From Desulfosarcina ovata subsp. ovata (GTDB taxonomy: Bacteria; Desulfobacterota; Desulfobacteria; Desulfobacterales; Desulfosarcinaceae): a stretch of DNA of 64,000 nt. Below the pieces are notes generated by a model. That model was not told the origin of the DNA. It did not search any database and was given only the letters and a program-made list of their open reading frames with translations. This document shows positions 30,262-59,682 of the stretch, piece after piece; the first letter of the stretch is position 1, and every line of letters starts with the position of its first letter. Where the stretch lies: the NCBI RefSeq assembly GCF_009689005.1, contig NZ_AP021879.1:124001-188000 (forward strand). Reading direction: 5' to 3'. The position numbers and the translations under genes were made by a program.

Positions 30262-30358
30262 CGCGCATGGCAGCGGGCCATGCCCCTGGTCCGCCACACA
30301 GGGCAATCGCATGTAACTATTTGTTGCTTTTTTACCCGCTATCGACGGGTCACAAATG

Positions 30359-30402
30359 TCAAATATCCAATGAAAAATGCCAACTGGTGGTATTCTGTCC
30401 AT
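30359..30402 (+). repeat. 44-base dispersed repeat, copy 1
   Basis: Runs from TCAAATATCC to TTCTGTCCAT and shares 41 of 44 bases, counted by eye, with 56256-56299. Both copies are intergenic and in the same orientation. Confidence 0.8.
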
Positions 30403-30591
30403 TTATAATCGATAGGATCCTTCAATTGACATTTGGATTTTACCATTTGGCATTGATTGAATCGGGGCGACGGGTTTGCGCTCACGCCACCGATCAGAAT
30501 ACATACAAATATGATCGCCTTGGTCCGCCATAAATAAACCATTGCATTTCGATGAAAATTCTTGTAGAGTCCATAGGCTATACTGCTTGCA

Positions 30592-39521: not shown

Positions 39522-39536
39522 TCGCCCATTTTATAG

Positions 39537-39634
39537 CATTCAAGATAATGTTTTTGGGCGGCGTTATCGGTCGTCGCGGTATAGGTTATACAGCTTCCTC
39601 CCTCTGGCCTTGCCAAAAACATTATCTTAAACAC
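39537..39634 (+). mobile_element. MITE-like element with 19-base inverted ends, copy 1
   Basis: A 98-base transposase-free element. Its ends are TTCAAGATAATGTTTTTGG (39539-39557) and the inverted form CCAAAAACATTATCTTAAA (39613-39631), one mismatch. It is flanked by TATAG on both sides (39532-39536, 39635-39639), a possible target duplication. A second copy lies inverted at 59534-59633. It fills most of the dnaE to DegT gap. Confidence 0.8.
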
Positions 39635-39660
39635 TATAGCAAGCAAAAAGGACCCCAGCC

Positions 39661-56062: not shown

Positions 56063-56437
56063 CGACTTTCCTGACGATTATCGGGTAATTGGAAACCGGA
56101 AACGGTCGAAATTCAATCCACTGTGTAAATGCCATACAATAGTTCAAAATGGGGCGGCGGGTCAATACGGTTGCATCCGGTCCAACGGGCGTCCTGCGGT
56201 TTGGAAGATATTTCCAGGCCGGCACCGGCTCCTCTGATGCCACCCGATAGAGATATCAAATGTCCAATGAAAAATGACAACTGGTGGTATTCTATCCATA
56301 CATCCAAATGCGGTTACCTGCACGGTGCATTGATTGGGGTTGATGTCGATCGGCCTTTTGGTTTATAGAGGAGTAAATTCATTGGTATTTATTGAAACTT
56401 TTCATTCTTGACCAACGCATGTTGTGGAGGCTGGTAA
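56063..56437. other. 375-base divergent intergenic region
   Basis: Between the 81-residue gene (minus) and the LysM gene (plus). It contains the 44-base dispersed repeat at 56256-56299. A convincing promoter for either gene was not found. TGGAGG serves the LysM gene at its right end. Confidence 0.5.
56256..56299 (+). repeat. 44-base dispersed repeat, copy 2
   Basis: Matches 30359-30402 with three differences by eye (TCAAATGTCC... to ...CTATCCAT). Same orientation. It lies in the gap upstream of the LysM gene. Confidence 0.8.
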
Positions 56438-57124
56438 ATGAAGTGGAAAGATACGGGTGGGGCAGAAAGCCCGGCTCCCGAACCGAAAGATCCCTATTAT
56501 GAGGACGACGGTTACCCATCCTTTAAAGAGAAAGGCTTGAAAACATCGGGTATTTTGTCTGCCAATCCAGTGCATTATCTGTATTGGGGGCTTGGCATTG
56601 CGTTGGTCATCGGTGTTGTATTGCTGGTCATCCTGCTTTTTTCCTATGGCGGGGACCCCGTTGGCGCCGATCGCATTGCCGAACTTGAGCAACGCATTGA
56701 ACAGCTGGAACAGCAACTGCAGAAGGTCGAGGGGGTGGATGAAAAGGTGACCCGCATCTGGGAGCAGGCCAAAGCCTTTGAAACCTTTAAAACCCGTTTT
56801 GACCGGTCGGAAGCGTCCACATCCCTTAGAATGGACCATCTGGCCATGAGCCTGGATGCCCTGCAGAAGAAGACCGATACCGTCGCGCAGAAGGTGAGCC
56901 GGCTGGAAAAAGCCCCGTCGCCGCGGACCAACACGGCCAGTCCACCCGTCGTTAAAAAAACGGCTGCGGTAAAGACGCACATCGTGACCGCCGGGGACAC
57001 CCTTTACAGCGTCAGCCGGAAATATCATCTCAGCGTTGAACAACTCCGGTCGATCAACAACCTCAATAAGGAGGACGTCATCCACGTGGGGCAGACGCTG
57101 ACTGTCAGCGTGCCTGGCGATTGA
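56438..57124 (+). CDS. Membrane-anchored coiled-coil LysM protein
   Basis: A 228-residue type II membrane protein. Residues 1-45 are cytoplasmic and charged. A transmembrane segment lies at about 46-68 (LYWGLGIALVIGVVLLVILL). A coiled coil covers about 75-150 (Glu/Gln-rich), followed by a linker and a C-terminal LysM domain (about 177-224, HIVTAGDTLYSVSRKY to VGQTLTV) that binds peptidoglycan. TGGAGG precedes the ATG. It probably tethers the inner membrane to the cell wall. The palindrome at 57142 follows 17 bases after the stop. Confidence 0.85.
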   Translation: MKWKDTGGAESPAPEPKDPYYEDDGYPSFKEKGLKTSGILSANPVHYLYWGLGIALVIGVVLLVILLFSYGGDPVGADRIAELEQRIEQLEQQLQKVEGVDEKVTRIWEQAKAFETFKTRFDRSEASTSLRMDHLAMSLDALQKKTDTVAQKVSRLEKAPSPRTNTASPPVVKKTAAVKTHIVTAGDTLYSVSRKYHLSVEQLRSINNLNKEDVIHVGQTLTVSVPGD

Positions 57125-57141
57125 TTAGGCGATTGGCGGAT

Positions 57142-57270
57142 AAGAATATACCAGGATGCGCATGATTTTCATTCGTATTCAAGGCGGGCTTTTTTACGCA
57201 TAGTGGGGCTATGTGTGGAAAAGCCCAACGCAGAAGACGGATGAAAAGACAAGCAGGCGGGTATATTCTT
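57142..57270. repeat. 129-base near-symmetric palindromic element
   Basis: Outer arms AAGAATATACC (57142-57152) and GGTATATTCTT (57260-57270) are perfect inverted repeats. Inner pairings include TTTTCATTCGT with ACGGATGAAAA, GGGCTTTTTT with AAAAGCCC, and a CATAG-TGGGG-CTATG tip centred at 57206. The entire element is symmetric about that centre. No gene is inside. Confidence 0.85.
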
Positions 57271-57311
57271 TGACAGAAATCGCCTTAACTGACGGAGAAA
57301 AGAGAGCATCG

Positions 57312-57737
57312 ATGAACGATTACCTTGCCCGTTTTGCTGCAGCACCGAAAAGTTTTAAAAAGAGCTTTGCCATGCTGACGGTGGCCTGGATCTGCCATCC
57401 GATTTTTCTTTACTCCCTTTTTCTCAACGCCCCGGTAGTGGAAGGTGCCGACAAAGCAATTATGAAAATGGCCATCGTCAGCATCAGTCTTCTGGCCCTT
57501 CTTTTTTTAATCAAGAAATGGGCCCGTGCGCTGGTGGTGGTGGGGACACTGTTCGTTGTGATCAACGACCTTTTTTATTTTGCGCTCGCCCCGCACAACA
57601 AAATCGCGACCCTGCTTTGCGTCGTTGTGGTGCTGTTGGCGATTACCGGTACCTACCAGCTTTTCGACAAAGCATCGCGGGACTACTTTACCAAGCTCAA
57701 TCCAAAAACCGAATCCCAGGATCCGCGCGGGGGCTGA
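57312..57737 (+). CDS. Small integral membrane protein, unknown function
   Basis: A 141-residue protein with four predicted transmembrane helices at about residues 17-37, 50-70, 73-93 and 98-118, and a polar C-terminus. The ATG at 57312 was chosen (GGAGAAAAG upstream); the reading frame runs back into the palindrome, from 57213, with an uncharacteristic leader. I do not recognise a family. It lies downstream of the LysM gene and the palindromic element, in the same orientation. Confidence 0.65.
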   Translation: MNDYLARFAAAPKSFKKSFAMLTVAWICHPIFLYSLFLNAPVVEGADKAIMKMAIVSISLLALLFLIKKWARALVVVGTLFVVINDLFYFALAPHNKIATLLCVVVVLLAITGTYQLFDKASRDYFTKLNPKTESQDPRGG

Positions 57738-59506: not shown

Positions 59507-59533
59507 CATTCCCATCAAGCGATTTCCATATCA

Positions 59534-59633
59534 GTGTTTAAGATAATGTTTTTGGCAAGGCCTTAAGGGAGGAAGCTGTATCATCCATACCGCTTTCGAC
59601 CGATAACGCCGCCCAAAAACATTATCTTGAATG
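59534..59633 (-). mobile_element. MITE-like element with 19-base inverted ends, copy 2
   Basis: Inverted relative to the copy at 39537-39634. Ends TTTAAGATAATGTTTTTGG (59537-59555) and CCAAAAACATTATCTTGAA (59613-59631). The inner parts agree over most of their length except the middle. It lies 50 bases before the cNMP-CBS ATG, between promoter and gene. No exact target duplication. Confidence 0.8.
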
Positions 59634-59682
59634 CTATCGACTGCCTGCTGTGTACTGGTTTCAATACAAACAGGATGCTTCG

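Follow-up and report, generated by a model that had tools for sequence, protein, structure and literature searches.

The window, by which we mean the whole stretch of 64,000 nucleotides that was analysed (G000:C1:124001-188000, G000 being the genome itself), lies in one 7.63-Mb contig. A LysM gene in this window ends with the stop codon TGA at 57122-57124, and a membrane gene lies downstream of it. Between the two genes is a mobile element of 157 bp (57128-57284, + strand), whose boundary is common to its copies and which is assigned to an end family called F1. The target duplication of the element is TTA, at 57125-57127, directly 3' of the LysM stop codon, and again at 57285-57287. Only one open reading frame of at least 60 amino acids overlaps the element (57213-57737), and it is the frame of the membrane gene extended mechanically upstream.

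The element has a core and two end cassettes. The core module (57155-57256, - strand) has 102 model positions and 27 pairs and is common to other end families; its match to the covariance model R1 (96.4 bits, E 8.2e-26) is expected by construction, since the window sequence is a row of the alignment A1. The left end cassette (GGCGATTGGCGGATAAGAATATACC.., 57128-57154, + strand) reaches 27 bp outside the core, and the right one (inward GGCGATTTCTGTCAAAGAATATACC.., 57257-57284, - strand) reaches 28 bp outside it. A search of the genome with the end patterns found 62 left and 70 right ends, and none with the reversed controls. The two ends of the element are identical to each other at 18 of 25 positions (positions 3-27), a score that none of 2000 shuffles reached. 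An outward TTGACA is present in the right cassette at 57270-57275, and the apex of the hairpin, CATAG..CTATG (57199-57213), is the counterpart of the core motif ACATA..TATGC.

The sequence-only reading had described a palindrome of 129 bp at 57142-57270 with perfect 11-base ends and a CATAG/CTATG tip. The palindrome is real and much more stable than shuffled sequence: positions 57130-57280 fold at -62 kcal/mol, as compared with a mean of -31.95 for 200 shuffles (z -8.64), and no shuffle was as good. Both 11-base ends are there, AAGAATATACC at 57142-57152 (+) and its complement at 57260-57270 (-), as are the two halves of the tip at 57199-57203 and 57209-57213. However, the palindrome is only the inner part of the element, as copies match past the ends that were reported and the true unit is the 157 bp given above. 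The arms had also been said to match over their whole length; in a comparison of one strand with the other, however, they agree at only about 70% of positions (67-70% for the long antisense matches), and the mismatches between the core arms recur across families.

Copies, target sites and neighbouring genes

A DNA search of the own genome found at least 40 copies with 96-100% identity across nearly all of a 146-base query, these being the best 40 of 109 first-look candidates scored. In the own-genome stretches examined there are 52 distinct F1 copies with both ends, counted after elements that appeared on both strands in an earlier list of 67 rows had been merged. Most of them (44) are exactly 157 bp; one is a short form of 58 bp and one has a damaged left end. 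Insertion was mostly at TTA or TAA, with duplication of those 3 bp. An exact 3-bp duplication is present in 42 of the 52 copies (shuffles, mean 19.9 and maximum 32) and absent in 10. The duplicated 3-mers are TAA (21 copies), TTA (19), CAA (one) and TCA (one), and none of the duplications reaches 4 bp.

Five F1 copies (1310175, 2531299, 3217678, 4938810 and 5262490) have paralogous empty sites that match their joined flanks. The empty site for 1310175 is a repeated sequence, that for 4938810 is another palindromic repeat, and those for 2531299 and 5262490 are a third repeat. The copy at 3217678 was inserted within a copy of a second end family, F5, and intact F5 copies match its joined flanks at 50 of 50 bases. 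Matches for 5300403, 6780050, 7222364 and 3912386 were not counted as empty sites, as they are mostly the element's own flank or other ends.

The locus in the window was also compared with that of relatives. The membrane gene was found in 10 of the 12 congeneric genomes searched and is preceded by a LysM gene in all ten, and none of these ten has a core match at the orthologous locus. In one congener (G019, stretch L291), the gap between the two genes contains a different insertion-like sequence, which is about 130 bp long and carries inverted repeats. The element itself was matched in six of 30 genomes of the family, the own genome included (E<=0.001).

The element is short and without a transposase gene, has terminal inverted repeats and a target duplication, and is present in many dispersed copies, all of which are properties of miniature inverted-repeat transposable elements (MITEs). 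We conclude, with a probability of about 0.8, that it is a non-autonomous, MITE-like DNA transposon. The suggestion of a mobile palindromic repeat is thus borne out by the dispersed copies, the 3-bp duplications, the five paralogous empty sites and the empty orthologous site in ten relatives. A unique copy with no conserved pairing, which would have spoken against that suggestion, was looked for and is not the case.

In the own genome, 123 copies have both ends and sufficient flanking sequence, and only one of these is inside a called gene. Of the 104 that could be classified, 26 adjoin the stop codon of a called gene, and insertion into TAA or TTA explains these contacts. The F1 copies are in tandem orientation in 16 cases against 5 (p 0.027), and of the 18 located no more than 100 nt from a gene start, 16 are co-directional with the gene (16 to 2). 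The F5 copies display no orientation rule (12 against 10 in tandem; 11 against 8 near starts). The gene calls came from a crude home-made caller and several orientation tests were made, and the bias in F1 may be due to chance. The outward TTGACA noted above is a property of F1 right ends, and the F1 copies near gene starts face the start with it, 16 to 2. Judging from the sequence, this motif could help to build promoters.

The conserved core and its end families

The pairing of the core was studied in an alignment (A1) of 16 chosen cores from five end families plus one F1/F6 chimera; L155, in which the second arm is divergent, and copy 3912386, a near-duplicate, were left out. In a separate list of matches, a stricter threshold took out antisense and weaker ones. 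Twenty-two columns of the 16-core alignment are invariant. RNAalifold predicts 27 pairs, and 14 of these have compensatory changes on both sides. In the alignment 94.0% of the cells are paired, as compared with 79.6% after shuffling, and there are 55 double-change cells as compared with 13.2, a number reached in none of 500 shuffles. Related sequences can beat shuffles without any structure, and therefore the double changes weigh most. Sliding the partners by 1-3 columns lowers the pairing to 32-53%, although the slid versions are expected to be worse, this alignment having also been the source of the structure. The idea that the repeat is structured is consequently upheld, since its pairing has been kept through compensatory changes.

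The strand with arm B first, which is the plus strand of the window, has the better fold in 40 of 45 cores. Single-side changes within the F1 copies, read on the arm-A-first strand, consist of 16 A-C and 9 G-U distinct events and 21 others, and there is no clear preference for wobble pairs on either strand. A search of Rfam with the window gave no match at the gathering score; at a lax threshold it gave only four miRNA-type matches, far below the gathering score and at chance level.

The model R1 has at least 146 matches in the own genome at E<=0.01, a lower bound that comes from scoring 150 of 2279 candidates. By their ends, 51 of these 146 belong to F1, 49 to F5, 12 to F6 and 9 to F7; three are chimeras and 22 have one or no recognised end. 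Thus, 121 of the 146 have both ends of one family. Exact duplications, mostly of TWA, occur in all four families (F1 41 of 51, F5 45 of 49, F6 11 of 12, F7 7 of 9). The core is a conserved imperfect hairpin of 102 bp and occurs with several kinds of end cassettes, the spacing of which hardly varies: among 269 recognised ends, 265 are situated 27-29 bp outside the core and the other four at 24, 31, 38 and 44 bp. F1 ends have no detectable kinship to F5, F6 or F7 ends, whereas F5, F6 and F7 ends, together with the ends F2 to F4 of other genomes, are partly related to each other. The chimeras are one F1/F5 element with an equal duplication, one F1/F6 element and one F7/F6 element, the two ends of which are similar anyway.

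MITE families are normally defined by the ends, the part that the transposase reads, and usually the ends are common and the interior is variable. Here, the pattern is reversed, with a conserved core and variable ends. If the core is taken as the basis of grouping instead, elements whose ends are unrelated and whose target duplications differ fall together, and this raises the question of what role the core has in mobility or persistence. The covariance model of the core can be used to find members of the superfamily, and the own genome offers four families and a few hybrids that can be compared copy by copy.

The own genome also has elements of 34-48 bp that consist of little but two end cassettes (408410, 2415727, 420500, 4194893, 5453405, 1012468 and 511595). 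Three of them (2415727, 1012468 and 511595) have TAA on both sides. These elements are either internal deletions or minimal mobile forms.

The core also occurs outside the own genome. R1 matches at least 32 of the 395 genomes sampled from the phylum, the own genome included (E<=1e-4, at most 10 candidates scored per genome, strict filters); the weak ones among these matches, such as L253, L258 and L260, may be distant or due to chance. In the matches of relatives the inner part sits behind different ends. A pattern scan of one genome for each of 84,980 species, made with F1-type ends lacking a base of the usual copies so as to avoid ordinary copies, gave 30 stretches, in Desulfobacterota, Methylococcales, a Nitrospinota MAG and others, and TTA or TAA directly precedes the end in 25 of the 30. 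The copies in the Methylococcales genome STB_122 also have the core; it was not seen in the Methylobacter copies of the scan. No matches were found in viral contigs, and two versions of the element had no match in plasmids.

A second class of ends, GTACC or GTGTC, is present in G173, G250, G299, G339 and others. Among 17 copies with such ends, a count that leaves out L352, L356, L364 and L365 with their deviating ends, 11 have TA on both sides, and nine of these are in the form CTA..TAG. One target specificity cannot explain all of the elements, since cores are also found behind the ends of this TA class. A Desulfatitalea MAG (L187 411-563) has yet another end family, GGGCTCGCGCAAAAATAA.., which is flanked by TTA on both sides and encloses a core-like interior; an F1 minimal element of 42 bp follows it directly.

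Transposases and possible ways of moving

No autonomous transposon with the element's ends, the remaining MITE property that was looked for, was found among the transposase loci and stretches examined. The own genome is very rich in insertion sequences and has 108 matches to PF01609, including a group of 23 copies with a 433-aa frame. In the 50 PF01609 loci examined, F1-type ends occur only where a copy of the element is nearby, and none of the ten multi-copy groups that were compared has ends of this type. In eight of the 30 pattern-scan stretches the frames were read (L161, L162, L167, L179, L180, L187, L172 and L174) and no transposase was recognised; frames were also read partly in L176 and L183. 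All of these look like ordinary genes, as judged by reading the frames and not by a family search.

PIF/Harbinger and bacterial IS5 (IS1031) transposons make a 3-bp target duplication of TWA or TNA, a rule that the element follows. However, derivation from IS5/IS1031 was not supported, as its ends are not common to the IS5-type transposons at the loci examined, and PF13359 was matched neither in the own genome nor in G029 or G005. The PF13359 loci of four other genomes are also without the element's ends, except for one small element in L201.

Pairs of GG ends in identical TWA were scanned for in 1.64 Mb, and four pairs were found. Those in L167 and L187 enclose ordinary genes and the one in L183 encloses a methionine-aminopeptidase-like gene (by reading). 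The fourth (L113 611-3213, which is G000:C1 951250-953852) is a transposon with a DDE_3 (IS630-type) transposase (PF13358, 3.8e-29). It was seen once, has GG ends with TTA on both sides, and is broken by a PF01609 insertion sequence. Probably, it makes the 3-bp duplication too. Its ends share GG and the flanking TTA with the element and otherwise differ from F1, F5, F6 and F7; the best likeness to F1 is 9 of 14 positions (shuffle fraction 0.004), one of 32 comparisons and not significant after these. IS630-type transposons duplicate TA in a CTAG target, which fits the TA-class elements of other genomes. This broken transposon moved our guess about the acting transposase from IS5-like to IS630-like, as a lead and not a proof.

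The best reading of these results is a new superfamily of MITEs with a conserved hairpin core. Presumably, a DDE transposase acting in trans, perhaps of the IS630 (DDE_3) type, would bind the paired end cassettes, cut beside GG and insert the element into TWA. The end cassettes may switch with the transposase that is available, partly through recombination of co-resident families within the common core. The core itself would owe its retention to its folded form (RNA, or DNA as a hairpin or cruciform), which may aid transposition or persistence, or help the host to tolerate transposition. A stronger statement, that what is recognised in this superfamily is a folded hairpin core, conserved in sequence motifs and in structure across phyla and across two target-site classes, with exchangeable 28-bp ends for which complementarity and a fixed distance suffice, is made tentatively and is doubtful.

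It is also conceivable, though unlikely, that the elements form an ordinary lineage of MITEs within a single transposon family that is diversifying, with a core conserved by shared descent only and ends that track the transposase. This would agree with the facts that all of the cores can be aligned, that F2 to F7, the ends of the TWA class, show partial kinship, and that MITEs without their parent transposon are common; the DDE_3 transposon, present in the same genome and flanked by a duplication of this kind, slightly raised our estimate of it. However, the core has persisted longer than the ends, both across genera and in a Methylococcales genome, with covariation, and it is carried by two target-site classes.

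An improbable explanation is that a recombinase reads the folded core and cuts at a fixed distance from it, so that the end cassettes need only be complementary to each other. The element would then be a mobile hairpin guided by its structure and not a usual terminal-repeat transposon. The common core behind ends that are not common, the 27-29 bp spacing, the lack of detectable kinship between F1 and the F5, F6 and F7 ends, and the strand preference of the fold all point in this direction. Yet the end cassettes are well conserved within families, and the F2 to F7 ends are partly related. The elements of 34-58 bp are mostly end cassettes, some with equal 3-mers at both sides, and they suggest that the ends alone may suffice. 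In addition, DDE enzymes that work on duplex ends typically produce exact duplications of 2 or 3 bp. Finally, it is quite improbable that the core is an RNA element (a terminator, a processing site or a stabiliser of mRNA) that is under selection because of what it does to nearby genes and that transposons only help to spread, for although the compensatory changes, the stop-codon contacts and the co-directional F1 copies near gene starts would be in keeping with this, F5 has no orientation rule, wobble pairs are not clearly favoured on either strand, Rfam has no match, and TAA insertion by itself accounts for the contacts.

Comparison with known and neighbouring repeats

The element differs from REP/REPIN sequences, which are palindromes of 20-40 bp with GTAG or CGTC tags that are moved by RAYT, in its size and in its target duplication. 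Geobacter was formerly placed in the same delta-proteobacterial group. Multicopy and palindromic intergenic families have been noted in Geobacter; a common core with exchangeable ends is not described in the accessible portions of those papers (PMC2700814, PMC2996986).

The enterobacterial palindromic MITE of 127 bp known as ERIC, IRU or RU-1 is, like the element, an imperfect palindrome of similar size. By eye, CTGCGTT, TTAC..GTAAG and CGCCTT in a real ERIC copy resemble the element. ERIC termini carry TA, according to the accessible part of the source (PMC2229807), and in this they differ from the element. Kinship was not supported: with filters off and at E<=10, neither of the models R1 and R2 matched the ERIC copies of L300 and L301. 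The Correia/NEMIS and RUP elements, which could be compared by description only, are small terminal-repeat elements with long hairpins and a target duplication, as in the element, and differ in having TA termini, as far as the same portion of that source describes them (PMC2229807). In the literature that was searched, which left most subscription papers outside its scope and gives no proof of novelty, five motif strings from the element occurred in 13 papers, the titles of which concern other subjects.

The window has two more dispersed repeats. One is palindromic (TAGCATTCAAGATAATGTTTTTGG.., at 39532-39638 on the + strand and 59533-59637 on the - strand) and is matched at more than 10 other loci; the F1 copy 4938810 sits in one copy of it. 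The order GCGTTAT..GCCTTG in this repeat resembles that of the core, and the copy at 39532-39638 scores 8 bits against R2 (E 0.098 in 361 bases). By sequence likeness it is a possible relative of the core, which is suggestive only. The other (ATCAAATGTCCAATGAAAAATGACAACTGGTGG..) is present at 30356-30402 and 56253-56299, and the stretch beside it at 30415-30470 is the empty site for the F1 copies 2531299 and 5262490.
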